From Candidatus Buchananbacteria bacterium (lineage in GTDB: Bacteria > Patescibacteriota > Patescibacteriia > 2-01-FULL-39-33): 58,549 nt of DNA. The notes under the pieces were generated by a model. That model saw nothing but the letters and a program-made list of their open reading frames with translations. It was not told where the DNA came from and ran no database searches. The position numbers and the translations under genes were made by a program. Within the stretch, counting starts at the first letter, position 1, and each line of letters opens with the position of its first letter. The stretch lies in assembly GCA_030650095.1 (NCBI GenBank), contig JAUSEE010000031.1:1-58549 (forward strand). The letters run 5' to 3'. Below, one piece after another: positions 10,225 through 32,632 of this stretch.

Positions 10225-10225
10225 C

Positions 10226-13202: not shown

Positions 13203-13789
13203 AGTGGCACTTTATTGCCAGAGAAATATGGTGATCCTGACTAGTAACCACACACAGAAAGGTTAGAGTTAAAACCTAATAATCCCCTTAACTTATCTTT
13301 GGTTAAATAATATTCTTTTAAAATATCAAAATTTAAATTATATAAAAAGTAAATACAATTAAATCGTTCATCTTCCCATAGTTTTTAAGATTTTTATCTG
13401 ACATATTATTGTTTATTTAAAACACCGATATAATCATTACCCCAATCATCAAAAACAGTAGACGCTGAAATCCCAGAAATGATATGTCAATAAAAATAGT
13501 TGCGCATTGGCGATAACTTTTTCAAGTCACCCTACACAATTTCAAACATAAACCGTGCCACCCAAATAATAATAGTTTGGGTTGTTATAATTATTTCTTC
13601 TTTATATCAAAAATCGGCGAAAAATGCCAGTAGGCTAACCAATCAGCGAACCGCACCTTAATGAATAGAAAAGCCCTTTTTATTGGGGAAATCTATTTCA
13701 GGAAACAAAAACAGGCACTAAAATACCTGTCTTGTCCAGTCAGCTCCGCGCTATAAACGTCTATATTTAGGTGTTTTTAATTTTATATC

Positions 13790-13808
13790 TTTGCCACCTG
13801 GTGGCAAA
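13790..13808. repeat. Palindrome TTTGCCACC-T-GGTGGCAAA
   Basis: Perfect 9-bp arms. Confidence 0.8.
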
Positions 13809-13831
13809 CATAATAACTTTTCTAACTATAG

Positions 13832-13852
13832 GGTGTTCACCTGGTGAATACC
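13832..13852. repeat. Palindrome GGTGTTCACC-T-GGTGAATACC
   Basis: One mismatch in 10-bp arms. Confidence 0.7.
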
Positions 13853-14043
13853 TTGATAATATTTTTTCTAAACTTTTAGCCGTATCCCATGCAGTCATAG
13901 TGTTGTGATGAATATTTTCAATCACTTGTCGCATAAATCTATAACGGACTTAAAGAAGCAAAATAACTTAGAATGACGATTAATTAACCAGGACTGACAA
14001 AACCGTAATTAAATGATATGATTTTGATAATAACCCATTAATT

Positions 14044-15189: not shown

Positions 15190-15428
15190 ATCCAGTCGGT
15201 ATTTTGGTAGGTGTTAATAACTTAAAATAAAATGGCTGTAATTAGCCATTTTTAATTTTTTTAATTTTTGCAAACACCCACCCAAAAGTCAATAGATTCA
15301 ATATTTTTATAATAGTACAATTAGCTTATCGATTAGCGCTAAATGAACATTGACAACTAAATAACAAAAAGTCAGAACAACAAACAACAGTTTGTCCAAA
15401 TTAAATAATTAACTTAACAATTAAATTT

Positions 15429-15836
15429 ATGAAAAACACAACTTTCAACAACCAGTCAGTAAAATTATTCAACATATTATTTGCCTTTAACGATGCTGTT
15501 AAGCATGGGGCGATAATTGATGCCGATTTGATAAACAGAATAAATAAAGTCAGTAAAAAAATAGCAAAAGCCGCTAGTGAAGCTATGAATATCGGCATAA
15601 AGAAAAATCTGACATATGATACGCCAAGAAGAAAAGTATTTCCTAAACAATATGCCGATCAAAAGACTAGGCTAATATTGGATATCGGCTCAGCGTTTAC
15701 AGATGCTATCTATGTTAAAGCTTTAACTGACAAAAAAGTAATAAAAGAAATGAGTGAGATCAATGATAAGTTATTAGACTATCTCAGAAAATCCCCTGCA
15801 AAAACAAAGGCCAGTAACAAATCAAAGAAACAATAA
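15429..15836 (+). CDS. Hypothetical protein, Lys-rich
   Basis: ORF 135 aa. Confidence 0.65.
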   Translation: MKNTTFNNQSVKLFNILFAFNDAVKHGAIIDADLINRINKVSKKIAKAASEAMNIGIKKNLTYDTPRRKVFPKQYADQKTRLILDIGSAFTDAIYVKALTDKKVIKEMSEINDKLLDYLRKSPAKTKASNKSKKQ

Positions 15837-15842
15837 TCAAAT

Positions 15843-16019
15843 ATGAACAATAACAGAAAAAAGAAAATCATCGGCTGGATTGATATGTCTGGCAATAATC
15901 GTTGCCTAGCATGCGACGATGGTGACGGTAATGAAACAATCACTGTTGCTGATCTTGAAAAAGCAGAATGCCAGATAAAGTGCGACATCTGTGGTCACTT
16001 GATCAAAGAAGACTACTAA
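15843..16019 (+). CDS. Small two-CxxC zinc-ribbon-like protein
   Basis: Hand-translated 58 aa MNNNRKKKIIGWIDMSGNNRCLACDDGDGNETITVADLEKAECQIKCDICGHLIKEDY; below ORF-track size cutoff. Confidence 0.65.
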   Translation: MNNNRKKKIIGWIDMSGNNRCLACDDGDGNETITVADLEKAECQIKCDICGHLIKEDY

Positions 16020-16029
16020 TTAATTACAA

Positions 16030-16065
16030 AACCCCTCGGGGGCATTAATTTTCCTCGAGGGGTTT
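16030..16065. terminator. Bidirectional terminator between convergent genes
   Basis: AACCCCTCG...CGAGGGGTT. Confidence 0.8.
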
Positions 16066-16081
16066 ATTAGTAGCTTCAGTA

Positions 16082-16276
16082 TTATTCGCCTGATAAATAA
16101 TTCTCATTAATTGAATAAGTTTGAGACCCTGGATCAAAGCATCCTCTCTGCATCCTCTCTGCTAATTTCCTTATAAGGTGGCTTAAAATCGTTAGATGGC
16201 TAAGATGACCTCTTGATAATTTAAATATCTTTAAGTGGTTGTGAACACGTTTAAATAACTCAGGATTTATCTCCAT
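16082..16276 (-). CDS. Hypothetical small protein
   Basis: ORF 64 aa overlapping upstream ORF stop/start; a 35-40 bp stretch recurs at 12963-13003. Confidence 0.5.
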   Translation of the reverse strand: MEINPELFKRVHNHLKIFKLSRGHLSHLTILSHLIRKLAERMQRGCFDPGSQTYSINENYLSGE

Positions 16277-16689
16277 TATTTATCTAATGCTTTCAGAACA
16301 GCAATATAATCGCATTTACACCATACATTACTACATGATTGAATTGGTAGTGGTTGTTTTTCCAGTATTTCTTTTAAATTATATATCCCATGAGCTTGGG
16401 CGCATTCTTCGCAGCAACCAGGATTATTTATAATCTCCACATTATCAACTACCTCGCTATCAATATATGATTTTAATATTTCTGATAATGCTATTTTATG
16501 GAATTTAATATAATTGCTAAATATAAGTGATGCATCAATATTTCTCTCCCTTTTAAACTTAACCATTTCGGCATAAATATATGCTATCTGAAAATTGTCA
16601 TTATTTTTCATTGCTTTTTCTAATTTTTCATGAAGAGACTTCCATTTATAATCATCTTTACTCCAGTTCTTATTGTTTAACTTAGACAT
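16276..16689 (-). CDS. Hypothetical protein with Cys-rich treble-clef-like motif
   Basis: 137 aa; CCEECAQAHGIYNLKE...CSNVWCKCDY. Confidence 0.65.
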   Translation of the reverse strand: MSKLNNKNWSKDDYKWKSLHEKLEKAMKNNDNFQIAYIYAEMVKFKRERNIDASLIFSNYIKFHKIALSEILKSYIDSEVVDNVEIINNPGCCEECAQAHGIYNLKEILEKQPLPIQSCSNVWCKCDYIAVLKALDK

Positions 16690-16830
16690 ACATATTAAAT
16701 TAATTTTTTCTACTCATAATCTCATTATGGTTATAGTGATCAAATCTAGTGTCTGATTCAAATAATATGGCCAGGGCCATTAATATCTTTTTATCAATGT
16801 TAATAATATTTTATCCCACTTCCCTATTAT

Positions 16831-17397
16831 TTATTTCAGTAAATCAATATCAATTATATCAATTAGGGGGATACAAAATTTTCTGCTAGATTCTTCGTAG
16901 CCGTAATATCCACAATCTAAACCTCTAAATTTTCCTATTACTAAATAAATATCTCTTTCAGAATCAATTTGATCACTAGTCAATCCATCATATCTTTTAA
17001 GTATATAGCTAACCCACTTACCTTTGTGCTGATAAGCGGTTATGTCTAATAAGTCCTCTGGTGATGCCCAAAAAAACTCGTAGTCTTTTCTTTCTCCTTT
17101 GATAAACTCATCATCATAAGGCCAAAATTTTATTCCATCAATTTGGCTTTGATTGCTAATTTTTCCCTCCCATTTAATAATTTTTTCAATACTAGTTGAG
17201 GTTGCTATATTATTTGGGTTGCTTAAATCATTAAAAGTTAAATCTGTAATTAATTTTTCATCGACTATTGGTTCTGAATAAACAACATTTGGCTCATCTT
17301 CTGTTGCTGTAATATTTAATTTATTATTCGTCTGTAAATTACTACTACAGCCAGATAAAACAAAGATAAAAATTAATAGTGGTAATATTTTTATCAT
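16831..17397 (-). CDS. Putative lipoprotein
   Basis: 188 aa; LIFIFVLSGCSS lipobox. Confidence 0.7.
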   Translation of the reverse strand: MIKILPLLIFIFVLSGCSSNLQTNNKLNITATEDEPNVVYSEPIVDEKLITDLTFNDLSNPNNIATSTSIEKIIKWEGKISNQSQIDGIKFWPYDDEFIKGERKDYEFFWASPEDLLDITAYQHKGKWVSYILKRYDGLTSDQIDSERDIYLVIGKFRGLDCGYYGYEESSRKFCIPLIDIIDIDLLK

Positions 17398-17449
17398 ATT
17401 ATTTTTTTTAAATAATCCATAAGAAACCCGCTAGCGAATACATTATCTT

Positions 17450-18649
17450 TTATTCTTTAGTTGTATCAGCATTGGGGAGCTCTTCAAATTTAACTGACAT
17501 TGTAGGATTCCCTCGGGTTAGCTTTTTAATTGTCAAATCTTCTATTTTATTATTGGCTATACGAAGATTATTTTCTGACGACAGGAGAGCATCTTTGGTT
17601 TTTTGGAGATGATCTATGGTTTTATCTATTTCTTCGATGGCGGTTTTAAATTTACGACTGGCTAGATCATAATTTTTTGCAAATCCTTCTTTAAATTTAT
17701 TTACATTATCTTCAAAGTTTGTAATATCAATATTCTGATTCCTTACTAAAGCAAGCTCAGCCTTGTATTTAAGCGAATTCATAGCTGCATTACGTAGCAA
17801 GGTTATTATAGGAATGAAAAATTGTGGACGAACTACATACATTTTTTGATATTTATAAGAAACATCAATAATACCAATATTATATAGCTCATTTTCGGCT
17901 TCCAGAAGCGTCACAAGCACGGCGTACTCACACTTCTTCTCTATGCGATCTTTATCAAGCTCACGCAAAAAGTCTTCATTTTTATGCTTTGTGGCGGTCT
18001 CATCGCCTTCATTTTTCATTTCGAACATAATGGAAATGATTTCATTGCCAGAATCATCTGTTTCGCGATAGATATAGTCACCCTTACTGCCTGACTTGGA
18101 ATTATTGTCCTTTTCAAAATATGCTCGCTGGAAACCAGTAGCACGGAGTTTATTAAATTCAGTCTCACAATGTTGCTCCAAAGTTTCGCCAACCATTTTT
18201 GTACTGAGTTTTAATTTCATGTCCTTATAGCGTTCGATCATCTCGTCCTTTGACTTCAATTCGTTTTCATATTTATTCCTCAATGAAGTTTCAAGAAGGT
18301 GTTTTTCGTGTTCTTTACTTTGAAGTTTGGCAGTGAGACCATCACGCTCTTTCTCGATTTTATTGACCGCCTCAGTGACAGCAAGTTTTTTCTGAAGTTC
18401 TGCGTTATTGATTTTTGATTTTATTTCAGCTAATTCGGATTCCTTGTATGCAAGATCTTTTTGTAATATATTGGTAATATTTGCTTCAGCAAGTTTAATT
18501 GCATTTTCTTTTTCATTTTCTGCAATGTTTAATCGCTCTCGTAATTCTTCCTCAAATTGATGATCTCGAACTTGCTTAAGAATATCAGCAAAACCAGCCT
18601 CATCGACTTTGAAAACTTTTTTACAATTTGGACATATAATTTCTTTCAT
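17450..18649 (-). CDS. DUF2130-like protein (coiled coil + PD-(D/E)XK-like nuclease core)
   Basis: 399 aa; N-terminal CPNCKK, coiled coil, [11 protein letters not shown]...IMFEMKNE. Confidence 0.8.
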
Positions 18650-18719
18650 ATTGGTTTTTTAATCTTATAATGGTTTTGTTTTGAAATAAAAGGTAGTTAA
18701 CTCCGTTTCCATAAATTTT

Positions 18720-19346
18720 TTAAAATCTTCTACGATAACCGCCTCGGCCCTTCCAGTTTGGGGCTTCCATGATCATAGAATTAGCTAAATTTTGTTTAGG
18801 TTTATCAAATGCAAAATCTTCTAACAATTCCGCTCCTTGAATTCTGTCTAGTCTAAATGTTCGTAAATCATGAGCCAAATGACAATTAGCAACTACATAA
18901 GTCTTATTCAAAGAATATGGATCAACTATCCTCCAAATCCCCTTATAACGAATCTTTATTGACCGACTCTTATTTATACCAGCTTCCAAGACTGAATAGT
19001 AATTCACTTTTGTCTCGACTGGTTTTGCATGATCAATAACCACCTCATTATATTTTTTACGTGCAGTATTATATGAAGCTAATTGTCCCTCACTAAATTT
19101 TTGTTTAATACTTTCTAAATAATTAACTTTCTCTTGTGCCCTACTTGTTCCTCTGGAATATTTTAATGGATCACCAGTAAAAGAAAGTAATTTATTTATA
19201 TCACTCTTTGACGCCTCAAGCTCACGCCTCGTGCGACGCCCACCGCTAACCGAAATATACTCTGAAGAATAAGATTTTGTTTTACATACAGAACAAAATC
19301 TGCCAAAGCCAGTAATTAGCGCCTTATCTTTAAAATCTGATAACAA
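18720..19346 (-). CDS. WYL-like domain protein, probably N-terminally truncated in the ORF call
   Basis: 208 aa; IKIRYKGIWRIVDPYSLNKTYVVANCHLAHDLRTFRLDRI; an in-frame CPRC lies upstream of the called ATG. Confidence 0.6.
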   Translation of the reverse strand: MLSDFKDKALITGFGRFCSVCKTKSYSSEYISVSGGRRTRRELEASKSDINKLLSFTGDPLKYSRGTSRAQEKVNYLESIKQKFSEGQLASYNTARKKYNEVVIDHAKPVETKVNYYSVLEAGINKSRSIKIRYKGIWRIVDPYSLNKTYVVANCHLAHDLRTFRLDRIQGAELLEDFAFDKPKQNLANSMIMEAPNWKGRGGYRRRF

Positions 19347-19435
19347 TTTTATTTCTCCACAACGAGGACAAATCTTGGAATTACCGCTACGTAAATCATG
19401 AATAGTATCCTGTATATTATTGACTATTTCATGAT

Positions 19436-22400
19436 TTATAATTTTTTTTTTACTATTTCATATATTCTAGAATCTAATGTGCTGATTGGATTTTCCCCTA
19501 AATTAAACTTGTTTATTCTAATGAATTTATAACCATAACTTTCAAGAATATATTGTCGATATACATCTTCTGGAGAATAATATTCTTGATAATTTGACTC
19601 GTTAACCAAACCAATATAATCACCAAAATGCTCAAGGAAGCCATCATATTCAATAATGATTTTATATTGTTTTCCGTCATTATCGTCGTAAATAAGAAGA
19701 AAATCCACTCTATAATTTGGATGATTATAGCTTTTATCCAGTTGCTTTAGATACACGCCCAATTTAAACTGAGGCAAAATTTCTGCTGAATCTTTGTTTT
19801 CCTCCCAAAATTTAGTTTGATAAAACCAGTCAAGAACCAATGGTTCCATGGCAGATTTTTTATCAACAGCACTACTATCAAGCTCTTTCTGTCCATCAAT
19901 AAGTATATTGGAATAGTGTTGTAAAAATTCCTTGGTTGTTCCACTATACTGATCTATTGGCTTGCTTAGAACAAAATGCATACATTCTTTAGCACGACTT
20001 AAACCAACATTAAGACGTTGTGCTTTAATTTTTCCTTCATCGTCGTCTTGATCAATACTATTTAAATCACTAATAAATACATAATTTAATTTATCGTCAC
20101 TCAATGTTGCGACCATCGAATAAAATATTATATCCATTTCCTCTCCCTGACAGGTATCAAAAGTCATTATTTTTAGCTTTAGAATATCAAACAAATAATC
20201 CGCCTCTGGTAGATCGCTGATTTTCTTATATAATAGCTGCTGTTGATTTGTATGAGGAGTAATAATACCAACGGTACACTTCTTGCTATGATTCTTAATT
20301 TCTATAAGCTGTAAAATAATATAATCAACCTCTGGAGTGTTGGTATTTTTTATTATCTCCTCTAAACCATCGTGTTTTATTTGACTAAATTTTATAACTG
20401 AGTTAATTGAAACTCCCCTAACTTTCATGACCTGAAGACTACCTTTATAAAAATATTTATTTGAATAAGAGATAAGTTCTCTATAGCCACGAAAATGTTT
20501 TACTAGACGGATTTGATAATTATTAATAAAACCAAAGAAATCTAAAATTGAAACCTTAATATTAAACTTTTCTAATCGAACAACCTTATCAGTCTCAGAA
20601 GATATATGATTTAAAAATACATCCTTCAAATTAGATAGATATTGTTTATTTATGTCACCACGGGCTAACGCAGACTTAACATTACTGAATTGCAAACTAT
20701 CTCCGAGGACGACTACCTTCTTGGCTCTCAAAAGAGCGGGAAAAGCTTGGGCAATACTTACTTGAGAAGCTTCATCAATAACAACTAAATCAAAAATCTC
20801 AGGTTCTAATGGTATATACTCGGCATAATCACGAATCCCAGACAAAATACAGGGGAATGCGCTCTTTAACTTTATAAACTGCTCCTTGGGAAATTTCTTT
20901 TTATCTTTTATTACCTGTTTAAGTGCTTTTGCATCACCCTTATAGTCATTAGTAAAGCCAACAAACCGCTCATCCATTAGATAGGTCATTTGCATTGTTA
21001 CAATATTTTCTATCTGTCTTGTTCTGTCTCCATAGTTTAGATCCTTAATTTCATCAAACTTTGATATTAAATCTTGATGAATAGAAATTAGTCTAACTAA
21101 TTTTTCAAATTCAAGATCTGAAATACTTGTCAGTTTATTTTCACATAAAGATTTAAACAAATTATCATTAATGCCAGCGGCGGTAAAACTAGACTCATGG
21201 TTACATGATACCCCTCTTAGATAATTGATATCATCATCAATTTCTATCAGAGAATCAACATATTCCTTGCAGACACTTATTCCTTCTATTATTTTTTTTA
21301 AAAAAATTGTTTGTAGTAGTACATCAATACTTATGTCTTTTTTCAGGTTAATATTTGCATTAATTAAATCACTCTCTTCTGATATTAATTTAATTATATT
21401 TTCGTATAAAGAGTTTAATTCATAAACAACCGATAAACAATTCAGATCTTTAAGAGTTAAAATATTAATTGATCCCTCTCTTAATTTTTCAGTAAGTATT
21501 TCTGCCTTAGACAATCCTGCAGTTAAATGATTTAGTTTTGATAGTTGATCTTCAGATAAATAAACGTCTTTATTTTTTAAAATTGACGTTACTAAAAATA
21601 TAAAATCAATATTATCAAAAAAACTTAAATCACTCTCAACTTTAAGCTCAAGAATATACTTATAAATACCCATAATTGTTTCCAATTCCTTGATTTTTTT
21701 ATGAGGATTTTCGATGTTTGAAAGTACAAATTTTTTAAGAAAACCTTGATTTAGCTTCTCTATCTGCTTCGTCTTACCAAAATAGCCAAAAAGAAAACCC
21801 TTTAACTCCTTGGCTGATTTAATATACTTATCTAAAGAAGCTAAATCATCGGAGTGAGATTCGTTGAATAAATTTAATAATGATAAATCATCCTTAATGT
21901 AATACCTGGATTTTTTTACAACATCATTAAGTATTAGCGAAAACTTAATAACTTCTCGAATGATTTCTAGTGAGTTTAGATGATTTTTTCTCACGCCCAA
22001 GATACTTATATATTCTTTTTTGCCATCTAAAATATCGACAATTTCAAAAATATCTGTCAAATAACCAAGCAACTCACTAACAATCGATTCATGACTCTTG
22101 ATTAACGGCTGATATACCGTAAATAATTCATCAATTTGAAACTGAGAATTTTCTGCTATAATTCTCTTCATATCTATAAGATCAGTAATAACCTCTTCTA
22201 AATTCTTTGAATTATCTATATTTAGTTCTTTTTTGAAATCAAAATTAAAAGAAATAGATCTATTTGATTGAATTTTTTCTTTAATTTTTAATAGAATGCT
22301 CCTTATTTTGATTAGTTCTTCCACTGAATTAGTATTTTTAACCGCCTCATCAATATCAATACATAAACCATCATGATCAAAATGTTTTTTTAATAACACG

Positions 22401-24262
22401 AGCTCATTGATTTCATTAATAGAAATTTTATTATATGCGCTCACCTGATCCTCTACTCCATTCCTTAATGCAGCTATTGCAGTGTCAATTTGTTCATTTA
22501 AATTGGGATATTTACTTCTAACGGCTCTAAACTGCTCAGTTATCCCAGCAATAGATGATTGTGTTAGTAATTGGCTATATGTATTGCCAGTCTTACCCAA
22601 TCTTAATAATGGATTTTGAAATTTTTCATCAACCCTAACTTTATTGAGTGTATTAACTATATTTTTTTCTACCACGTCTAAAGCTTCCTTTTTATCGGAC
22701 AACACCAAAACTGATTTATCTTTAAGGATAGTATCAAAAACAATTGCTGTTATGGTGTGACTTTTTCCAGTTCCAGGGGGACCTTCTACTAATAAATATT
22801 TACATTTATCATTATTAATTGCCGAAAGAATCTGCTGCTGTTCACTATTTAATGGTATTGGACTTTTACAAACTAGTCGTTCATCGATATTCTTCTCGTC
22901 CCATTCATCAATAATAACCATATTAACAGATTCTGGATTCTTATGAATAAAATCATCAATTAAAATCTGAAATCCATTCATTAATGAGCTACCTTCTGGA
23001 GCATTAAGAATATCTTCATAATCATTAAGAAGTGCCTCATCCGACTTGTCAAATAAAGCTACATAAACATTTGAACTCACGGACACGTAAAGATTTTTTG
23101 TTGCTTGAATATCTGGATTGGATACTTGGATTTTACCGTCAAGATTAAAAAAATTAGTAATGTCTGTCAGTGTTTCCTGTAAGACTAAATGAAGATCTTT
23201 TTTATGGTCTGCCAAATAAATAATACGCTCCGCAATTGTTTGAAGAGAACCCTTTTTATCGCGTTCCAAATTATATTCCTGAGCGATATAGGCTAACGCT
23301 TTTTTATTAATGTATATCTGAGAATCAAAAATAATATAAAATATATCGCTCTTGCGCTCAATTGAGAAGGGTATATAAAATATCGGATATTTATTTTTCT
23401 GATAACTTATATCATAAAAATAAAAATAAAATTCTTGCTTATCCTCTGTTTTAAAATTTTGATACAACTCATGTAGATCATTAAATAAATCAGAAACCTT
23501 AAACATGTCAAAAAATTTGGTTAAACTATCACATACATCATTCAAATTTAATGCACCTATTAATAATTTTTTTGTATTTGATTTTTCTCCACTTAATTTC
23601 TGTCTAATAGCCTCAGATACAGAATCGCTGATTTTCATCTTTAAAATCTCAGTTAACTCTTCTTCTATTTGAAATATAGCATTTTCATCGGCAAGCTTAT
23701 TGTTATCTAAGGATTTTTCTAAACTTTTCACCAAATCAAGCACAATGCGTTTTTTAAATACCTTATCGGCATCAGCCATAACACAATTAAAGGCCTGCAA
23801 ATAATCGTCACTATACTTAAGAGCCGATTGCTTAATAGATTCATCAAGATCTTTAATTAAATTAACAATATCAGATTCTGACACCTTAGCTATTTGTTTT
23901 TTTATTAAGTCAAGCAATGACTTGGGTATATCAGCCTTGTATACGCTCTTCTGTACTGAGCTCAATATATCGCTATTAAAACAATTATTAACTAACTTAT
24001 AGGCTACTTTATAGAAGCTTGGGTATTTACTCAAATTAATACCAGTAAGCAACCCCTTATCATTATGAAGTTTTACGCTTCGACGGGGTAATTTTCTTTT
24101 ATGGAAATCGGTTTCTAAAAATTCCATAAAATAACCGCCAACTTCTTTAATAAAGCAAGATAGTGAGTTGGGCTGTTTTTCTATAGATTGTTTAGCCATA
24201 AATTTAAATAAATTCTCATAAATATTAATTTTAATAATACCACTTTTCACTTGATAAGTCAA
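19436..24262 (-). CDS. SF1 (DNA2/NAM7/UPF1-like) helicase with C-terminal restriction-endonuclease-like domain
   Basis: 1608 aa; Walker A VEGPPGTGKSHTI, Walker B LVVIDEASQ, GDSLQF, NVGLSRAKE; C-terminal VDFLLIYDDNDGKQYKIIIEYDG resembles DUF559/Vsr-type fold. Confidence 0.9.
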   Translation of the reverse strand: MTYQVKSGIIKINIYENLFKFMAKQSIEKQPNSLSCFIKEVGGYFMEFLETDFHKRKLPRRSVKLHNDKGLLTGINLSKYPSFYKVAYKLVNNCFNSDILSSVQKSVYKADIPKSLLDLIKKQIAKVSESDIVNLIKDLDESIKQSALKYSDDYLQAFNCVMADADKVFKKRIVLDLVKSLEKSLDNNKLADENAIFQIEEELTEILKMKISDSVSEAIRQKLSGEKSNTKKLLIGALNLNDVCDSLTKFFDMFKVSDLFNDLHELYQNFKTEDKQEFYFYFYDISYQKNKYPIFYIPFSIERKSDIFYIIFDSQIYINKKALAYIAQEYNLERDKKGSLQTIAERIIYLADHKKDLHLVLQETLTDITNFFNLDGKIQVSNPDIQATKNLYVSVSSNVYVALFDKSDEALLNDYEDILNAPEGSSLMNGFQILIDDFIHKNPESVNMVIIDEWDEKNIDERLVCKSPIPLNSEQQQILSAINNDKCKYLLVEGPPGTGKSHTITAIVFDTILKDKSVLVLSDKKEALDVVEKNIVNTLNKVRVDEKFQNPLLRLGKTGNTYSQLLTQSSIAGITEQFRAVRSKYPNLNEQIDTAIAALRNGVEDQVSAYNKISINEINELVLLKKHFDHDGLCIDIDEAVKNTNSVEELIKIRSILLKIKEKIQSNRSISFNFDFKKELNIDNSKNLEEVITDLIDMKRIIAENSQFQIDELFTVYQPLIKSHESIVSELLGYLTDIFEIVDILDGKKEYISILGVRKNHLNSLEIIREVIKFSLILNDVVKKSRYYIKDDLSLLNLFNESHSDDLASLDKYIKSAKELKGFLFGYFGKTKQIEKLNQGFLKKFVLSNIENPHKKIKELETIMGIYKYILELKVESDLSFFDNIDFIFLVTSILKNKDVYLSEDQLSKLNHLTAGLSKAEILTEKLREGSINILTLKDLNCLSVVYELNSLYENIIKLISEESDLINANINLKKDISIDVLLQTIFLKKIIEGISVCKEYVDSLIEIDDDINYLRGVSCNHESSFTAAGINDNLFKSLCENKLTSISDLEFEKLVRLISIHQDLISKFDEIKDLNYGDRTRQIENIVTMQMTYLMDERFVGFTNDYKGDAKALKQVIKDKKKFPKEQFIKLKSAFPCILSGIRDYAEYIPLEPEIFDLVVIDEASQVSIAQAFPALLRAKKVVVLGDSLQFSNVKSALARGDINKQYLSNLKDVFLNHISSETDKVVRLEKFNIKVSILDFFGFINNYQIRLVKHFRGYRELISYSNKYFYKGSLQVMKVRGVSINSVIKFSQIKHDGLEEIIKNTNTPEVDYIILQLIEIKNHSKKCTVGIITPHTNQQQLLYKKISDLPEADYLFDILKLKIMTFDTCQGEEMDIIFYSMVATLSDDKLNYVFISDLNSIDQDDDEGKIKAQRLNVGLSRAKECMHFVLSKPIDQYSGTTKEFLQHYSNILIDGQKELDSSAVDKKSAMEPLVLDWFYQTKFWEENKDSAEILPQFKLGVYLKQLDKSYNHPNYRVDFLLIYDDNDGKQYKIIIEYDGFLEHFGDYIGLVNESNYQEYYSPEDVYRQYILESYGYKFIRINKFNLGENPISTLDSRIYEIVKKKL

Positions 24263-24265
24263 AAG

Positions 24266-24303
24266 AAAAACAGGAGCAGTTTTTATGTCTGCTCCTGTTT
24301 TTA
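24266..24303 (-). terminator. Terminator hairpin
   Basis: AAAACAGGAGCAG...CTGCTCCTGTTTT. Confidence 0.8.
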
Positions 24304-24318
24304 TAACAATAATTTATC

Positions 24319-24861
24319 CTAAATTACCCATTCACGAGGTAGTCCTACAAATGAAAATCCAAAAGTAATTAATAGTGAAATAACAGCAATAACAGCGACC
24401 GGTACCAGCAGCTTCTTATTGGTCAAAATGGGCTTCTTCAAAGTCGAGATAAACCAGCGTTCTAAAACCGATAGGGCCAATAAAGTGATAGATAATTGCG
24501 CCAACAAGCTGGCAATACTATAAATTGACCATTGAAGATTATATGACAGATTTTGGTCAGCATGCCATATCTCCCCGTAAGGCAAGCTACCGCTTATGGT
24601 AAGCAAGATTACTGCGGCTAACAGCAACTTATATCCTAAATCACGATATTTCTTAGGCATTATCAGTATCAGCAATAATGCAGCGATCCAACATCCAATC
24701 AACTGGACGAAAAACAGCTGGTTATTGCTTAGGAAGTTATTGCTGACATTAATGCCTACCAAGAGATCACTGATAAATATAAATAACCAAAAGAATACCA
24801 CCAAGTAAGCGCCCCCGATTATTACTGAGATGAATTTTTTGAAGTCGTTGGATAAGGTCAT
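24319..24861 (-). CDS. Multi-TM hypothetical membrane protein
   Basis: 180 aa, about 5 hydrophobic segments. Confidence 0.75.
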   Translation of the reverse strand: MTLSNDFKKFISVIIGGAYLVVFFWLFIFISDLLVGINVSNNFLSNNQLFFVQLIGCWIAALLLILIMPKKYRDLGYKLLLAAVILLTISGSLPYGEIWHADQNLSYNLQWSIYSIASLLAQLSITLLALSVLERWFISTLKKPILTNKKLLVPVAVIAVISLLITFGFSFVGLPREWVI

Positions 24862-24892
24862 AAAATTATAAATTTAATATGTGAATGATTAT

Positions 24893-25708
24893 TTAACGAC
24901 AAACAACTGCTTCTTCGCCAATTACATCACTTAAATATTTCTCTACATCAAAGGAGTCACCAAGTTGATCTATTAAGCCATTATCCAAAGCCTTCTGACC
25001 ATCCATAGAATTGCCATCAGCTAATTGTTTTACCTTCTCAATATCCAGTTTTCTATTTTCTGCAACATTTCTGACAAATATATCATAGCCAGTTTGCAAA
25101 TTAGCTATGAGCATATCTTTCTCTTCTTTAGTTAATTTTTTATCTGAATTTCCAGTATCCTTATACTTGCCAATGCTTAATTGATTAAATGTTAATCCTT
25201 CTTTTTGGTTTTTATTAACATTATCCAAATATGACATAGTTATTCCAATCGATCCAACATCAGATAAATCAGAAGCAAATATCCTGTCAGCTCCACTGGC
25301 GGCAAAATAAGCTGCTGAAGCTCCCATGTCCCTGATTAAAGCCACTGTTGGTTTTTCCGATCGCTTAAGAGCATTGGCAATTTCTTGACCTGTGGTAGGC
25401 CAGCCCCCACCAGAATCTATGCTTAATAATATGGCTTTAATATTTTCATTGGCATCGGCGTCTTTGATTTGATTCACTATTTCTTCTGAAGATGAGCAGT
25501 CGGCACACTCCTCGTTCTCTTGGATGTAGGTATAAAGATCGCCATATAAATTTATTTTAGCGACATTGCAATCGCCATAAACCAAGGAATCATCATCAAA
25601 CCACATAATCACAGCGATAGACCAAAAAGCTATAACAGTTACTATTAGAATAATAACAGATATAGCTTTGGATATTTTTTTGATTTTTGGTGGTAGATGA
25701 AATTTCAT
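24893..25708 (-). CDS. sppA: Signal peptide peptidase SppA-like (S49 family)
   Basis: 271 aa; LSIDSGGGWPTTGQEIANAL...IRDMGASAAYFAASGADRIFASDLSDVGSIGI. Confidence 0.93.
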   Translation of the reverse strand: MKFHLPPKIKKISKAISVIILIVTVIAFWSIAVIMWFDDDSLVYGDCNVAKINLYGDLYTYIQENEECADCSSSEEIVNQIKDADANENIKAILLSIDSGGGWPTTGQEIANALKRSEKPTVALIRDMGASAAYFAASGADRIFASDLSDVGSIGITMSYLDNVNKNQKEGLTFNQLSIGKYKDTGNSDKKLTKEEKDMLIANLQTGYDIFVRNVAENRKLDIEKVKQLADGNSMDGQKALDNGLIDQLGDSFDVEKYLSDVIGEEAVVCR

Positions 25709-25718
25709 AGATTATATC

Positions 25719-26060
25719 TTATTTTTTATTCTTTTTACTAAAAACCACTTTATTAAATATCATAGTAATAATAATTGCCAGAAAAGCATAGCCAACAATC
25801 TCCCCAAAAAAACCAACAAGCCCATTGCTCTCAGTAAAATTAATATAAATTGATCTACTTTGAAGCAAAAGAACAATAATAAAAATAATCATGAACATTT
25901 TCCATGTTCTCCGACTATTATTGTCATCTTTATTTTTTGATAAGACGGTTGAATCTTTCGGAGTTGAAGCAACATCATCTATTTGTTTGACTTTAACGCC
26001 ACACCCACCACAAAAACGGCTATTTTTTTCTATGACCAGCCCACACCTTGAACAAAACAT
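25719..26060 (-). CDS. Zinc-ribbon membrane protein
   Basis: 113 aa; MFCSRCGLVIEKNSRFCGGCG + TM helices. Confidence 0.8.
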   Translation of the reverse strand: MFCSRCGLVIEKNSRFCGGCGVKVKQIDDVASTPKDSTVLSKNKDDNNSRRTWKMFMIIFIIVLLLQSRSIYINFTESNGLVGFFGEIVGYAFLAIIITMIFNKVVFSKKNKK

Positions 26061-26089
26061 AAATTTATTATTTATTATTTTTTAAGAAT

Positions 26090-26947
26090 TTATTTACATG
26101 TTCCCCAAAAACCTCTTTTAGCGGCTCTAGCGACCTCTTGTTCATTATTTTGCAATCCTAACGCGTAATTAAAATCGCCAATATGGTAATTTGCAACAGC
26201 ATAACCTGCGTATACTAAATTTTTTTCGACGCTTATTTGTTCATCAGATTTAAGTTTACTAAAATCAAGAACTAATGGATCTACATCACTGCTTAGAATC
26301 GAAACATATCTCAAAAGACGTGGCTTCAACTTATCCACCGATTTATAATCTTCGGGAGTCGCTAAATAGACATATTTATGCTCGATAAACCTCTTTAAAA
26401 AATCAGTAGCCAATCTTGATCGACAATCATTACTACCTATGTCATAGATCCCAGTAATCTCTATGGTTCTAAAAGTTATAAAATTTTCATTTCCTTTTAT
26501 AATTAAATAGGATACGATAATAGTATTATTATCAACAACTTTCTCTACCCAAACTGATTTATTGTCATCTGGATCATTAGAAATTTGTTTTTCACTATCA
26601 ATTATAAAACCGTTTGGGTTAGAGAGGTAGACTGGATTAGTCGTCGAAGGCACATTATTAGCATTCCTATCTTCATCTGCTATCCTCTGTTTTTCGATTA
26701 AGTTATTAATAACATCTTTAGCAACCAAAAATCCAAAGGCTATAGCTATAATTACGACGACAATAATAATTATTTTAACCAAAGTTGAAAAACTTTTATT
26801 CTCTCCCATACTAATATCACCTACTGTCACCGTACTACCACAGCTAATACAAAATTTATTACTTGGTTTAAATTTTTGTCCACATTTTGGACAATTTTTT
26901 GGTTTTTCCATATTTTTAAATAATTTTAAGTAATCAAAAAAGGCCAC
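26090..26947 (-). CDS. Zinc-ribbon + TM + staphylococcal-nuclease-like domain protein
   Basis: 285 aa; CPKCGQKFKPSNKFCISCG; C-terminal NLVYAGYAVANY...EQEVARAAKRGFWGTCK resembles SNase. True start may be the internal ATG of MEKPKNCPKCG. Confidence 0.65.
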   Translation of the reverse strand: MAFFDYLKLFKNMEKPKNCPKCGQKFKPSNKFCISCGSTVTVGDISMGENKSFSTLVKIIIIVVVIIAIAFGFLVAKDVINNLIEKQRIADEDRNANNVPSTTNPVYLSNPNGFIIDSEKQISNDPDDNKSVWVEKVVDNNTIIVSYLIIKGNENFITFRTIEITGIYDIGSNDCRSRLATDFLKRFIEHKYVYLATPEDYKSVDKLKPRLLRYVSILSSDVDPLVLDFSKLKSDEQISVEKNLVYAGYAVANYHIGDFNYALGLQNNEQEVARAAKRGFWGTCK

Positions 26948-27055
26948 CCGTACTGGTATGGCAATCTTTCAACTGCCCTATGACCTTTCGGACATAGGCT
27001 CACACAAGCAAAACCAGACGGAATGGCCGTCTCTGTGCTCGTGTGAGTCTTTTTA
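26945..27055 (-). ncRNA. Candidate structured RNA / leader with several adjacent hairpins
   Basis: CTCACACaAGCA..CCAGACGG/CCGTCT..TGCTcGTGTGAG; CCTATG..CATAGG; GGCA..TGCC; then TTTTTT. Confidence 0.4.
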
Positions 27056-27182
27056 TAATCATGCCCGAAGCTAAAGCAACGAGTTTAGATTATCTACTAG
27101 ATTGTATCTGTAATCTACCAAAAAACGGCTCAAAAATCAAGCCAGTGGGCTAACCAGCTAAATAACCAATTAGCCCACAGTA

Positions 27183-27205
27183 ACTCTGTCACCTGGTGGC
27201 AGAGT
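27183..27205. repeat. Palindrome ACTCTGTCACC-T-GGTGGCAGAGT
   Basis: 11-bp arms, one mismatch. Confidence 0.8.
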
Positions 27206-27214
27206 ACATTATTA

Positions 27215-27418
27215 TTAAACCGACCGTGAATATTTTGCTAACCTTAAACAACTGAGGCATAACACTTTTTCTGGTTTTTTTATATGCGGAAAGGAAAGAA
27301 AAACGCGGTATTTAATGAATAATCGAAGGCACCGATTACATCGCCAGCAATTTGCATTCTCCCTTATCTGATATTTTTCTAAATAATAAATAACCTGCCC
27401 ATTAATTCGTTTCAACAT
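27215..27418 (-). CDS. Small Cys-rich protein
   Basis: 67 aa; CWRCNRCLRLF...VLCLSCLRLA. Confidence 0.55.
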   Translation of the reverse strand: MLKRINGQVIYYLEKYQIRENANCWRCNRCLRLFIKYRVFLSFPHIKKPEKVLCLSCLRLAKYSRSV

Positions 27419-27421
27419 AAG

Positions 27422-28195
27422 CTACTGGTTTAATAACTCCTCTATTAGTTGGCTAGCCTCAAATTTGGATAATCCTTCTGAAGTTTTAAGATGTTCTTCC
27501 AGTTCTTCTTTTTCAAAATATCTTTGACTGATTAAATTATAAAGAAACCTCTTTTGCTTGGCAGTGGCTGGAATAAAGCCAAATTCATCCCCCTGATCAG
27601 CTACAAAAGCGTTATTCACGGCGTCTGGGAAGCGCTGGGAGCTATTCTCTATATCAACCTGAACATTATGACCTCTTGAATAATCAACAGCCTCTGAGCG
27701 ACTGCTATCTAACGCTTCTGACAAATTTTCGATGTCTTGAGTGAAAATATCAGACAAGCCAGTTGTTCTGATCACAGCGTCTATGTAGGATGACTTTTGG
27801 CTCATCTTGATTGTCTTGTTCACATCCCATTGGTTTTTAGAAAGAGTGGCGGCTCCTCTGCCTTGCCCAACCACTTGATTATTTCGACAAAGATTACAGA
27901 CATAAGCGATTATATCTTTGACCTCACTAAAAGCGTTCATGGTGTCGTCATCTCTCTTAAAAGTGGCAGTTAAATTATAAATGTTTGCTAATTTTTCAGC
28001 TCCACCTTTCGCCAAAGATTTTCTGCCTTTTATTTCATAATAATCCTGATTCTCCTGCAGTTTGGGCAGTACTTGAGAAATAAAATAACTTCGCTTCGCC
28101 AGCAGATTATCCACTCCTTGTTTAAATGCCTCCAAAGTATCGGCCATCGGTTGAGCAATATTATCGGACATTGTTGTTGATAGTGCTTGAGTCAT
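27422..28195 (-). CDS. Hypothetical phage/plasmid-type protein
   Basis: 257 aa; GRKSLAKGGAEKLANIYNLTATFKRD resembles conserved phage recombination-associated proteins (inference). Confidence 0.65.
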   Translation of the reverse strand: MTQALSTTMSDNIAQPMADTLEAFKQGVDNLLAKRSYFISQVLPKLQENQDYYEIKGRKSLAKGGAEKLANIYNLTATFKRDDDTMNAFSEVKDIIAYVCNLCRNNQVVGQGRGAATLSKNQWDVNKTIKMSQKSSYIDAVIRTTGLSDIFTQDIENLSEALDSSRSEAVDYSRGHNVQVDIENSSQRFPDAVNNAFVADQGDEFGFIPATAKQKRFLYNLISQRYFEKEELEEHLKTSEGLSKFEASQLIEELLNQ

Positions 28196-28380
28196 ATGAT
28201 TTTAGTTATGATTAATTTGTTTAACTCATACTCAACATTTATTTTGTCACCAGTGTTGAAGCCACAAGCTAATAAGTAATTATTGACTATGCGAATATAC
28301 GGGATAATTCGACGATTATGATTGAGATGACTGACAGTCATTGTTCTGACTGCGCTATCGTTATTGATTGTTTCTGACAT
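28192..28380 (-). CDS. SymE/AbrB-like small protein
   Basis: 62 aa; RRIIPYIRIVNNYLLACGFNTGDKINVEYELNKLIIT; start overlaps previous gene's start by 4 nt. Confidence 0.55.
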   Translation of the reverse strand: MSETINNDSAVRTMTVSHLNHNRRIIPYIRIVNNYLLACGFNTGDKINVEYELNKLIITKII

Positions 28381-28398
28381 AAAAATTGATTAAGTTAA

Positions 28399-28566
28399 TT
28401 ATTGATCCATTTGGCCGCACTTCTTGCACACGCCGATATAAATCACCTTGTCATTTTGAATATCAAGCATGGATATGGTTTTATAGCGATGCTTGCATTC
28501 GGCTTTTCTAAGATGATTGACGACTTCTTGATTGAGGCCAATTTCTCGCAGATTAGTCTTAGACAT
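28399..28566 (-). CDS. Small zinc-finger protein
   Basis: Hand-translated 55 aa ending ...VIYIGVCKKCGQMDQ. Confidence 0.55.
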   Translation of the reverse strand: MSKTNLREIGLNQEVVNHLRKAECKHRYKTISMLDIQNDKVIYIGVCKKCGQMDQ

Positions 28567-28741
28567 GTTCTCTCACCTCCTGTTTGACTTTAGGTTTATT
28601 GTTTTGAGGATTTGGTCCGACTGGACACGGTTCTCCTCCTAAATCCAACCACCTGAAAATACGGTTAAAGTAGCTTGATCGTCTGTAAGCTGACAAAGAA
28701 ACCAATGGAGTTATATCCATATTGGTAATTGAGTTAAACAT
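28559..28741 (-). CDS. Small hypothetical protein
   Basis: 60 aa, overlaps adjacent small ORF. Confidence 0.4.
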   Translation of the reverse strand: MFNSITNMDITPLVSLSAYRRSSYFNRIFRWLDLGGEPCPVGPNPQNNKPKVKQEVREHV

Positions 28742-28755
28742 AGCTGATTTGGTTA

Positions 28756-29055
28756 TTAATTAATTGGTTCAACTTGCAGATAGTAAAACAAATTGACTCG
28801 TTTGGGATAAGTGCTGATAACCTCGCCGTGTTCATCTTTGCGATCAACATAAGTAATACTTGGTATGGCACGTTCCCCGCGTTTGACTCTAAAGTTATTA
28901 GCCAACCATTGCTTGAAAGTAAGGCAATTATAATATGGGTCATAGTTTTTAACTTCTGCCTCGCCATACCTTCTGGCTATTTCTTCGGCCACCATTTTGG
29001 CAGTAGCCGTCGATCCTTTGTAGTTGGATTTAATAATGGATTTGATTGATTCCAT
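28756..29055 (-). CDS. Hypothetical protein
   Basis: 99 aa. Confidence 0.6.
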   Translation of the reverse strand: MESIKSIIKSNYKGSTATAKMVAEEIARRYGEAEVKNYDPYYNCLTFKQWLANNFRVKRGERAIPSITYVDRKDEHGEVISTYPKRVNLFYYLQVEPIN

Positions 29056-29653
29056 AAATTTGTTTGATTAATAATTTAGTAAATAAAAAAGCCACCAGTC
29101 GACTTTTAAACACTGACGGCTTGAGAAAGATTTAGCTATTAAACTAAATCAGAGATGGGGTATTTAATTATTAAATTAGGGCTTGGGGGAGCGGTTGATT
29201 AAGGAATCATCTATCAATATGGGAACTAGGACATAAAGGAATCATCTTCTTCTGCGACCAAATTTAAAGCTTGGGGGTGGTTTGGAAATAATTTCAAAAT
29301 AAAAATAATCTTGGTTAAAAAAATTCCACCAAATTTTTTAAACTTTTTTAACATCTAGTAAATTACTATTACTCTGCCAACCCTACTAAGTAGATATGAA
29401 AAAAAATAATTTCTTGTTAATAAACATATTTTATCCAATATACGCTTGTCTTGTTTAAATGATTAATAGTAAAAAATAATAAAAAATGTAACTTTACATC
29501 TAAATTTAGTGTTTTTTTGCGATGTGTCTTGACATTTAATTTCCCCACTAAGAATCATCATTAAAAGATGTTATTTCGACAAAAAAACAGAGCTTTTTTG
29601 TGATAAAAAATATCGTTTTCTTGTCTAAATTTATTATTTTTTCACAACGACAC

Positions 29654-29682
29654 TTGACAAAATGAAAATACTCGTCTATAAT
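29654..29682 (+). promoter_or_regulatory. Perfect sigma70 consensus promoter TTGACA-17-TATAAT
   Basis: TTGACA 29654-29659, 17-nt spacer, TATAAT 29677-29682. Confidence 0.85.
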
Positions 29683-29712
29683 TATATTTAATAAGCATCA
29701 CAACTAAATAAA

Positions 29713-29751
29713 AAACAAAGACGCAGCCAAGGGCTGTGTTTTTTGTTGCTG
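29713..29751 (+). terminator. Terminator/attenuator hairpin in the leader
   Basis: ACGCAGCC-AAG-GGCTGTGTTTTTTG just downstream of the promoter. Confidence 0.65.
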
Positions 29752-29804
29752 TCTGACTAAATGTTGGCAAAAAAAGCTTATTAAAAGATTAACTTAGATT
29801 ATTT

Positions 29805-30302
29805 ATGGCAAAAAAATTAAAATTCACTCCACTTACTGCTATCAAAATGAAATGTCTGAACTGCCAGGGATTCAATAAGATGGGCGTCAGGAGGTGCGGA
29901 CATCAAAATTGTCCTAATTTTCCCTATAGATTAGGCAATAATCCTAACCGTAAGGGAATCGATAATGGAATAATGACCAAAAACAATCATGGACTGGAGA
30001 AATCCTTAATTGAGTCGATAAAAAACAGGCAAAACAAGGCTGATAACACACTCATACCAAGGCCACTCTCAACTATTAGACAAGAGTGTCTTGATTGTTG
30101 TTTGGATCAGCCAGGAGAAGTATCTTTTTGTCCAGCTCTAGAATGTCCTTTTTACTTATTTCGTTTTGGACGCAGACCGACAGACAAAGAAATAAGTCAG
30201 TTCCTTATTGATTGCCATGAGCCAGAGATATTGAATGAAGCATATATCGACCTAGCAACTCAAGTCAAGAAAATCCTTAATTCAGTCAAAGAAAATAAAT
30301 AA
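29805..30302 (+). CDS. Phage-type Cys-rich zinc-binding protein
   Basis: 165 aa; two repeats of KCLNCQGFN..VRRCGHQNCPNFPYRLG / ECLDCCLDQPGEVSFCPALECPFYLFRFG. Confidence 0.75.
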   Translation: MAKKLKFTPLTAIKMKCLNCQGFNKMGVRRCGHQNCPNFPYRLGNNPNRKGIDNGIMTKNNHGLEKSLIESIKNRQNKADNTLIPRPLSTIRQECLDCCLDQPGEVSFCPALECPFYLFRFGRRPTDKEISQFLIDCHEPEILNEAYIDLATQVKKILNSVKENK

Positions 30303-30317
30303 ATAACAATAAAAATT

Positions 30318-31340
30318 ATGAACAACAAAAACATCAAAGAATTATTTGATGATTTTATTAAACAATGCCGCTACATCACAAAGTTATCTGAATCATCAAT
30401 TGACGGCTATAATTCAACTTTTGAGCTTCTGCTTAAAATCTATCCTGATTTGACAGTCGAAATGCTGACTCCAGCACTAATGACAGAATTCTTTGAAAAA
30501 TTAGAGAAGAGAGCCAGAATAGTTGGGCGAAACAAAACAGTTAAAGTCGGCATTAAAAGCTCAACTGTGGCCACCTATCGATCAAAGCTTAATAAGTTTT
30601 TCAATTGGCTGGTAAGCAATGGATATCTTAAAAGCGATCCCTTTGGGGGGATGGCGTACCCAGATGTCGATTACGACGACAAAAAATTCCTCCGTAAAGA
30701 GGAGTTGGAAAAGATTGTTGCTGCTATTTCCACCAGATCGAATAATCTTCTTGTTAGAAAACGCGATCTAGCCATGTTTTACACTCTGCTTTATTGCGGC
30801 TTAAGGCGCGGGGAATTAATCGGTCTTAAGGTATATGATATTAATCTCGAAAAAAGAGAAATGACTGTGGCAGCAGAAACATCTAAAAGTAAGAATTCTA
30901 GAATTATTCCAATCCACCTAGAGCTAGTAACACTGTTTAAAGATTATTTGGCAGAAAGAAAAAAACTTAGATATCAAACATCATCTCTGTTCGTTTCCAA
31001 TAACAGGGACGCTGGTATTACTTTTAACGGGCTTAAACATTTTGTTGATAACATAAAAAACGCGTCGGGGGTGAATTTTCATCTACACCAACTGCGACAC
31101 ACATTTGCGGTCAATCTATTAAACAATCACAGCGATATAGCAAAATTAAAACAACTAATGGGCCACAGAGATATCAGAATGACTGCCAGCTATCTGCGTT
31201 GCCTGCCCACCGAGTCTATGAGAGCTGATGTAGAATCACTGAGATTAGATAAGATGTGTTGGAGATATTTCAGATATGATTCAGAGGATGTTTGCCAATC
31301 TGCGACCGTAAATGTTCGGCAGAAGCGGCCAAATAAATAG
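30318..31340 (+). CDS. Tyrosine recombinase/integrase
   Basis: 340 aa; CGLRRGEL, HQLRHTFAVNLL, LMGHRDIRMTASY. Confidence 0.93.
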   Translation: MNNKNIKELFDDFIKQCRYITKLSESSIDGYNSTFELLLKIYPDLTVEMLTPALMTEFFEKLEKRARIVGRNKTVKVGIKSSTVATYRSKLNKFFNWLVSNGYLKSDPFGGMAYPDVDYDDKKFLRKEELEKIVAAISTRSNNLLVRKRDLAMFYTLLYCGLRRGELIGLKVYDINLEKREMTVAAETSKSKNSRIIPIHLELVTLFKDYLAERKKLRYQTSSLFVSNNRDAGITFNGLKHFVDNIKNASGVNFHLHQLRHTFAVNLLNNHSDIAKLKQLMGHRDIRMTASYLRCLPTESMRADVESLRLDKMCWRYFRYDSEDVCQSATVNVRQKRPNK

Positions 31341-32163
31341 TAGTGGTCTTAATATCGCTGTGACCCATCATTTTAGAAAGAGAAAATATGTCACTGCCTC
31401 CTTCCAACATCAGAGTGGCAAAAGTATGACGAAGTTTATGAACACCAAAATTCTTACCCATAGCTCTGGTGATATTCAGCATCAAGCGCTTTAAGCCGTC
31501 TTCGCTTAAATCCAAATTTTTATTTAGAGCAGTGAAAAAACCAGGACAAGATTTACCCAGATTTTGGCGTTCTGCCAAATAACGTTTTAAAATTTCAGCC
31601 AGTTTATCACAGATTGGAACCACTCTGTCTTTGCTACCCTTACCCATTCTGACAAAAATTGACCTGTTCAATAAATCAACATCAGCATATCTAAGATTCA
31701 ACAATTCTTTCTTTCTTAATCCAGCAAAGAGAAAAACAGACAACACAGCTTGATTTCTGTACTTTGAAAATTTATTTTGATAAGGATAATTATAGGCAAT
31801 TTCCAAGAGTCGCATAGCTTCTTGCTTAGTAAGCCTGGGTGGCAATTTTTTCTCCACCTTGGGCAATTCCATATCTTCTGCTGGGTTGATCTCAATATAT
31901 TTTTCTTTTTGGCACCAGCGAAAGAAAACCACTAATGATTTAAGAAAGGTAATGAAAGAATTGGCTGACCAATGCCTTACTGTGCGGCCATAGAGAAAAA
32001 ATTCCCTGATATTTTTCTCATTAGCTTCTTCAACATGACTAATGCCAGAAAACTTGACATAAATGCTAATGGAATAACGATAGCGTTTTATGGTGCAGGG
32101 GGAATAACCGCGAATAAAAGAAGAATGCTCACAGAATTGATCAGTTAAAGTTTTTATTTCCAT
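31270..32163 (-). CDS. Tyrosine recombinase/integrase (XerC/D-like)
   Basis: 297 aa; AGLRKKELL, HKLRHTFATLML, MMGHSDIKTTTIYL. Confidence 0.95.
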   Translation of the reverse strand: MEIKTLTDQFCEHSSFIRGYSPCTIKRYRYSISIYVKFSGISHVEEANEKNIREFFLYGRTVRHWSANSFITFLKSLVVFFRWCQKEKYIEINPAEDMELPKVEKKLPPRLTKQEAMRLLEIAYNYPYQNKFSKYRNQAVLSVFLFAGLRKKELLNLRYADVDLLNRSIFVRMGKGSKDRVVPICDKLAEILKRYLAERQNLGKSCPGFFTALNKNLDLSEDGLKRLMLNITRAMGKNFGVHKLRHTFATLMLEGGSDIFSLSKMMGHSDIKTTTIYLAASAEHLRSQIGKHPLNHI

Positions 32164-32206
32164 AAAAATAACACCTCCGAGATTTCAAAAGTGTTATTCT
32201 TGATTG

Positions 32207-32477
32207 AGCCGTTGTCCAGGATTGAACTGGAGACCTCATCCTTCGATTACACCTCTATTTCAAAATATATTAGAGGACTAGACTGTATATCAAGCATGGC
32301 CTTTCGGCTTTAGCTTCCCTTGTCAGTCGTTCGGGCGTGTCAGAGTGAGTGACGCCACGGTCTTAACCATTACTGGCCTTTGACCGTTATTGGGGATTCA
32401 ACAACCAGTTTCCTGATTGAAGGGCGAAGCCTTTTCGGCTCACCATGGATGCGCTCTACCAACTGAGCTACAACGGC
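32207..32477 (-). tRNA. tRNA-Thr(GGT) interrupted by a group I-like intron between positions 36 and 37 (exons 32442-32477 and 32207-32243)
   Basis: Exons join to GCCGTTGTAGCTCAGTTGGTAGAGCGCATCCATGGT|AAGGATGAGGTCTCCAGTTCAATCCTGGACAACGGCT, a perfect cloverleaf. Confidence 0.9.
32244..32441 (-). ncRNA. Putative self-splicing group I intron (198 nt)
   Basis: 5' exon ends in U, intron ends in G; core-like segments CGAACGACTGACAAGGG (R-like) and GATATACAGTCTAGTCC (S-like) with GACTG/CAGTC P7 pairing; small size as in bacterial tRNA introns. Confidence 0.78.
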
Positions 32478-32591
32478 ATAATTTTTTAAATTGTCATGTG
32501 TCTATCAGACCTACTCCAGTAAAGAGTTGGTCTATGTTTTCTACTTTATAGCTAAATTTAGAATCAAAACAGGGTTATGCACAGTCCCATA

Positions 32592-32632
32592 TCATTACCA
32601 TGGATGCGCTCTACCAACTGAGCTACAACGGC
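32592..32632 (-). pseudogene. 5' half of split tRNA-Thr(GGT), ends in the anticodon loop
   Basis: GCCGTTGTAGCTCAGTTGGTAGAGCGCATCCATGGTAA then diverges (TGATATGGG). Confidence 0.88.

Follow-up and report, generated by a model that had tools for sequence, protein, structure and literature searches.

Classical tRNA islands (Islander, PMC4383910) have a tRNA gene as target, a tyrosine recombinase and cargo genes, and they rebuild the tRNA at one junction through a longer stretch of shared sequence. A different arrangement, tRNA-dependent lysogeny, was described in actinobacteriophages (Guerrero-Bustamante and Hatfull 2024, PMC10865867), where the Lactobacillus prophage Lj965 is cited as a further case. 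In these phages, a tyrosine recombinase uses a very short core within a host tRNA gene, at the anticodon loop in the mycobacteriophage cases; the tRNA is rebuilt at neither junction, and the host is kept alive by a full tRNA of that isotype carried on the element. No introns are described for the carried tRNAs, and the paper does not discuss how they escape the integrase. Why a carried rescue tRNA does not become a target of its own integrase is a puzzle posed by tRNA-dependent integration. Introns have been brought into a related argument in archaea. Randau and Soll, as cited in PMC4390854, proposed that tRNA introns protect against integration, and in Caldiarchaeum, where tRNA-Thr(GGU) was disrupted, an element-borne intron was proposed to prevent further invasion (Sugahara et al. 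2012, PMC3293823). There, a 5' fragment of tRNA-Thr(GGU) lies upstream of an intron-containing tRNA-Thr(GGU), a recombinase gene is present, and the intron is a protein-spliced archaeal one, at position 24/25 of the rebuilt host gene. In bacteria, small group I introns without an ORF interrupt the anticodon loops of Azoarcus tRNA-Ile and Anabaena tRNA-Leu (PMC3984707), and an earlier paper notes such introns in tRNAs of CPR bacteria too (PMC8172020).

We analysed a stretch of 58,549 nucleotides from a Candidatus Buchananbacteria genome (the window), in which an integrative element interrupts the anticodon loop of the host tRNA-Thr(GGU) (Table 1). The core ATGGTAA is present at both ends of the element, with the host tRNA halves lying outside. 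Unlike in classical islands, the shared sequence is a 7-bp repeat and nothing is rebuilt: each junction consists of half a tRNA only. A short core with the tRNA rebuilt at neither junction was also seen in three further elements, and 17 elements including this one carry a whole tRNA of the isotype that they disrupt. The locus thus resembles tRNA-dependent lysogeny, but the element is a non-phage element of Patescibacteria and its rescue tRNA lies directly upstream of the recombinase. This extends rescue-type integration to Patescibacteria. Two genus mates (G001 and G002) share the flanks of the host locus, a TPR gene upstream and a gene with the Pfam name 23S_rRNA_IVP plus tRNA-Tyr downstream. 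In both, the flanks enclose an intact tRNA-Thr(GGU) that lacks an intron, and the element is absent; these loci represent syntenic empty sites.

Table 1. Features of the integrative element and its target in the window
Feature	Position	Strand	Remarks
Integrative element, ~19.9 kb core to core, in anticodon loop of host tRNA-Thr(GGU)	12684..32601	-	ATGGTAA direct repeat
Junction, host tRNA-Thr(GGU) 5' half + 7-bp core ATGGTAA	32595..32632	-	core 32595-32601
Leader, 117 bp, core to rescue tRNA	32478..32594	-	inverted repeat AGACC...GGTCT
Rescue tRNA-Thr(GGU), 5' exon	32442..32477	-	ends ...CATCC ATGGT; identical to host 5' half, 36/36
Group I intron, 198 nt, between U36 and A37	32244..32441	-	all 41 model pairs formed
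Rescue tRNA-Thr(GGU), 3' exon	32207..32243	-	AAGGATG...GGCT; identical to host 3' half, 37/37
Tyrosine recombinase 1, 297 aa	31270..32163	-	start codon 43 nt past rescue tRNA
Tyrosine recombinase 2, 340 aa	30318..31340	+	homologues in elements L131, L136, L138
LOOT RNA (RF03000), cargo	26960..27091	-	also in L024 2157-2278, L027 1599-1712
Superfamily 1 helicase, 1608 aa, cargo	19436..24262	-	similar in part to anti-phage proteins, though far under the family cut-offs
Other junction, host tRNA-Thr(GGU) 3' half + core	12649..12690	-	core 12684-12690

The original prediction had placed a complete tRNA-Thr(GGU), interrupted by a 198-nt insert between U36 and A37, about 115 bp inside the 5'-half junction, with exons matching the split host gene and without the integration core. 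All of these features were recovered. The gene occupies the minus strand at 32477-32207, 117 bp inside the core, and the insert has the coordinates 32244-32441. The joined exons (73 nt) are identical over 73/73 positions both to the joined host halves and to the intact tRNA of G001, and differ by one base from that of G002. When the joined exon sequence was submitted to ARAGORN, tRNA-Thr(GGT) was called. The ATGGTAA core is absent from both strands of the precursor DNA. A contiguous anticodon arm was not found anywhere in the window, because the tRNA gene is split. The unspliced gene was called neither by ARAGORN run without introns nor by the Rfam tRNA and RF00028 models, and routine annotation therefore overlooks it; when introns were allowed, ARAGORN reported a gene of matching extent with the intron misplaced and the anticodon mislabelled. 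The insert stands far beyond chance: the fold has z = -4.5 (0/200 shuffles), and 22 homologues share the same position in the tRNA with strong covariation.

An alignment of these 22 distinct homologous introns was used to assess a hand-written structure comprising P1, with a U.G pair at the splice site, and P2-P9, including the P3/P7 pseudoknot. Pairing was possible in 94.5% of cells, and 20 of the 41 model pairs changed on both sides among the homologues. The covariation score was 0.396, against 0.134 for shuffled alignments and at most 0.087 for slid versions of the structure. P1 and P7 were invariant, and P4 varied at one pair and on one side. RNAalifold returned the same helices without P3 and with the anticodon stem added. 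Base pairs are kept in 436/451 cells in element copies and in 416/451 cells in chromosomal copies, indicating that the introns on elements are as well kept. The features that define group I membership, namely a U.G pair of P1 marking the 5' splice site, a P3-P9 core, the P3/P7 pseudoknot and a 3' G, were all found, the last also being demanded by the extraction script. RF00028 gave no significant match to the insert in the window, the genome or the relatives; in control genomes it gave signals in 8 of 14, two of them above the cut-off. The miss is a shortfall of the profile and not of the structure. Judged by the covariation over 22 relatives, the insert is a group I intron, as had been predicted, even though the Rfam model passes over it, and it may self-splice by the guanosine-initiated route. 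Like the introns of Azoarcus and Anabaena, it is small, has no ORF, lies in the anticodon loop and has the P1 U.G pair and the 3' G; unlike them, it resides in tRNA-Thr(GGU), is not reached by RF00028 and, in some of its occurrences, is borne by a mobile element.

We next consider whether the host depends on the carried gene. Genome tRNAs were read from the stretches around Rfam hits. A second tRNA-Thr(GGU), which would have made rescue unnecessary, was not found in the genome of the window (1.16 Mb, 98% complete), while tRNA-Thr genes with TGT and CGT anticodons are present. ACT and ACC together account for 159 of the 202 threonine codons (79%) counted in 12 host ORFs. With no other GGU gene, the commonest threonine codons are very probably decoded by the carried copy alone. 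That the carried tRNA replaces the destroyed one, as predicted, agrees with the lack of any other GGU gene in a 98%-complete genome, and we hold this step with high confidence; the rescue tRNA is very likely essential to the integrated host. Annotation that misses such tRNAs would list the host as being without an essential tRNA. The presence of the TGT and CGT genes, together with a second tRNA-Thr-like sequence at 12563-12640, could also be accommodated if the intron-bearing tRNA were a pseudogene and the genome were served by wobble of tRNA-Thr(UGU) or by a GGU gene in the missing 2%. However, the exons are perfect and the intron has kept 41/41 pairs, the degenerate sequence was called by neither ARAGORN nor Rfam, and 165 of 230 genomes of the class contained a match to one strict pattern for an intronless GGU gene, indicating that the gene is generally kept. 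Decay of the carried copy is, in our assessment, highly improbable. The sequence at 12563-12640 (minus strand) is a degenerate tRNA-Thr-like copy whose anticodon loop reads AGT and whose D arm is broken. It follows immediately on the 3' half, at the spot where the intact tRNA of G001 ends, and may be what a previous insertion into this site left behind.

Sister elements were collected through homologues of recombinase 1, with L098 alone coming via the intron motif. The same layout, a split tRNA-Thr 5' half, a leader of 100-177 bp, a complete tRNA-Thr(GGU) and the recombinase, is seen in 17 elements. Of the 17 rescue genes, 11 bear the intron (the window, L022, L023, L024, L025, L098, L106, L123, L125, L128 and L130); the remaining six are intronless (L027, L039, L113, L114, L124 and L126). 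The far junction with the same core was located in three elements, giving lengths of ~8.6 kb (L131), ~8.1 kb (L136) and ~15.9 kb (L138). The anticodon loop is always the target, and L072 and L026 are inserted at the same place in tRNA-Ala(TGC) and tRNA-Gly(GCC), respectively. Extra partial tRNA-Thr 5' fragments (GCCGTTGTA...) were seen upstream of the target or the intron-bearing tRNA in L024, L097, L103, L106 and L123, as if the tRNA locus had been hit repeatedly. An inverted repeat in the leader (GACC ... AACAGGTC-like) is conserved in the window (32478-32594), L022-L025, L040 and L072, and is a possible accessory site for the recombinase.

We propose that the tyrosine recombinase inserts the element at the 7-bp core in the anticodon loop of the single host tRNA-Thr(GGU). 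The attP would have only this core in common with the target, so that neither junction restores the tRNA, and the whole gene is carried between junction and integrase. If carried in plain form, this gene would offer the integrase that comes with it a further attB. In this element and at least 10 sisters, the group I intron splits the core in DNA, with RNA splicing presumably giving back a normal tRNA; sisters without an intron have a different anticodon stem or loop. The rescue gene would thereby be taken off the list of integrase substrates while its product stays normal, which presumes that the integrase fails on it and that this failure has been selected. Transcription may occur by read-through from the host promoter region, promoter-like sites in the sequence being no commoner than in shuffles. 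Unlike in Caldiarchaeum, the rescue copy is a gene apart from that of the host, and its anticodon-loop intron is of group I and sits within the integrase core.

The evidence for shielding comes from the distribution of introns and anticodon stems among the rescue genes. The 5' anticodon stem is that of the target in 9 of 11 intron-bearing rescues and in none of the 6 intronless ones (Fisher p=0.0023, with relatedness ignored). Two random host genes would match in this stem with a chance of 0.22, and 0/6 alone is unremarkable (p=0.23); the excess of stem matches therefore sits in the intron group. The tRNA-Ala element L072 conforms to the intronless pattern, its rescue stem differing from that of its target. 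L022 and L125 have both an intron and a changed stem. The stem of L114 is close to that of its target (CACCC versus CGCCC), so that this slight change would need to be enough. A common host-type stem was seen in a single intronless rescue, that of L127, in which the split half and the leader are gone. The intron trait changes ~4 times across the integrase tree, and the phylogenetic contrasts, of which 2 to 4 are independent, were all in the predicted direction and non-significant. Gene conversion of the whole 5' half was considered as the sole source of the stem matches and rejected: L123, L128 and L130 differ from their target in the acceptor stem and keep its anticodon stem. The either/or pattern supports, without proving, the view that the rescue gene would have to escape being an integrase substrate, and suggests that the sister elements all need a spare tRNA that cannot be cut, through either an intron or an altered anticodon stem. 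The intron is one of two solutions among these elements.

The same observations bear on a simpler account, in which the rescue tRNA was taken from an intron-bearing host lineage, the intron is a neutral, spliced passenger and loss of the core is a by-product. Chromosomal tRNA-Thr(GGU) genes do contain the same intron family, the copies intermingle in the tree, and six elements have no intron. However, introns are ~20-fold commoner in rescues than in chromosomal tRNAs, being found in 10 of 16 rescues located via the recombinase and in 11 of ~373 chromosomal tRNA-Thr genes (p=1e-10, relatedness ignored); within the phylum sample alone they occur in 2 of at most 7 rescues (p=0.02, relatedness again ignored). 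Moreover, rescues that lack an intron do not have the anticodon arm of their targets, and we consider rescue with a passenger intron unlikely, though worth keeping in view. Shielding of the carried gene from its integrase is, in our judgement, probable. The complete model, in which a rescue tRNA is protected from the element's own integrase by a core-splitting intron or an altered anticodon arm, is the reading we favour, with reasonable though not strong confidence. Absence of the core from the DNA and the either/or pattern would be indirect evidence for protection of the kind envisaged by Randau and Soll. Of the 'restore-and-immunise' function originally predicted, restoration agrees with the sole GGU gene, and immunisation is narrowed to shielding the element's own rescue gene. 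The original prediction also stated that no described mobile element was known to use a self-splicing tRNA intron in this way. In the literature that the search covered, bacteria yielded group I introns in CPR tRNAs and no rescue tRNA with an intron; carried rescue tRNAs have been described earlier (PMC10865867), and protection by an intron, even one delivered by a mobile element, was proposed for archaea (PMC3293823). Two natural answers to the puzzle, an intron in the core and a rewritten anticodon arm, would occur within one integrase family, and small DNA substrates would allow a direct test of the old idea that introns guard against integration.

Only 43 nt separate the rescue tRNA from the recombinase, which follows it on that strand; this spacing is tight and conserved in nearly all elements, and terminator prediction between the two gave none. 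The intron might then be regulatory, with splicing or tRNA processing setting integrase expression from a shared transcript. Intronless elements keep the same spacing, which therefore does not require an intron, and no sequence evidence links splicing with translation of the recombinase, making regulation a very unlikely reason for the intron.

The intron was not invented by the element, because the same family is present in ~11 of 380 Patescibacteria genomes (~3%) in a chromosomal tRNA-Thr(GGU) with no element visible beside it; it is not peculiar to the element, and six sister elements do without it. Several of the 11 chromosomal intron tRNAs are near tRNA-Tyr, tRNA-Thr(TGT) or tRNA-Trp. The carriers are distant relatives, and the intron is absent from both genus mates, whose genes are intronless, so that the prediction of no intron-bearing tRNA in relatives without the element stood for the two genus mates and not for these distant relatives. 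In the poorly resolved intron tree, element and chromosomal copies intermingle; the intron was therefore available in host chromosomes, or was left there by elements. The window element and L022 share a recombinase lineage and an intron lineage while their rescue exons differ, indicating that the module was inherited and the exons in the window rewritten to the host type. In the rescue gene of L023, a seam of this kind is visible as GCCGTTGTA followed by a host-type tRNA start. A route to domestication is suggested by the collapsed L127 and by L103, in which a broken 5' half is kept upstream of its intron tRNA: the two 5' halves would recombine, the element would decay and the rescue tRNA would become the chromosomal gene. 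It is possible but rather doubtful that the scattered chromosomal introns are domesticated remnants of this kind, with elements turning host tRNA-Thr genes into alleles that have the intron and resist the integrase; if so, they would immunise their lineages against the whole integrase family.

Recombinase 1 has the conserved residues R150, K175, H242, R245, H268 and Y277. Recombinase 2 is distinct, is common to all four elements with both ends known and lies at the far end in three. Identity as a prophage, or tRNA-dependent lysogeny in the strict sense, was rejected: among 10 element proteins scanned, no virion genes were recognised save an S49-family peptidase, which resembles head maturation proteases too. 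In viral contigs the exact intron motif was absent and recombinases were just 25-32% identical. The LOOT RNA adjoins recombinase 1 in the relatives L024 and L027 and may be a component of this element family. Outside the element, a large serine recombinase (506 aa) and a 162-aa neighbour (9886-11901, plus strand) lie near tRNA-Tyr and tRNA-Thr(TGT), possibly as a second mobile element. Finally, in Bacteroidota and relatives (L042, L045 and L051), relatives of recombinase 1 adjoin complete tRNA-Lys genes, and the same strategy may therefore operate with another tRNA outside Patescibacteria.
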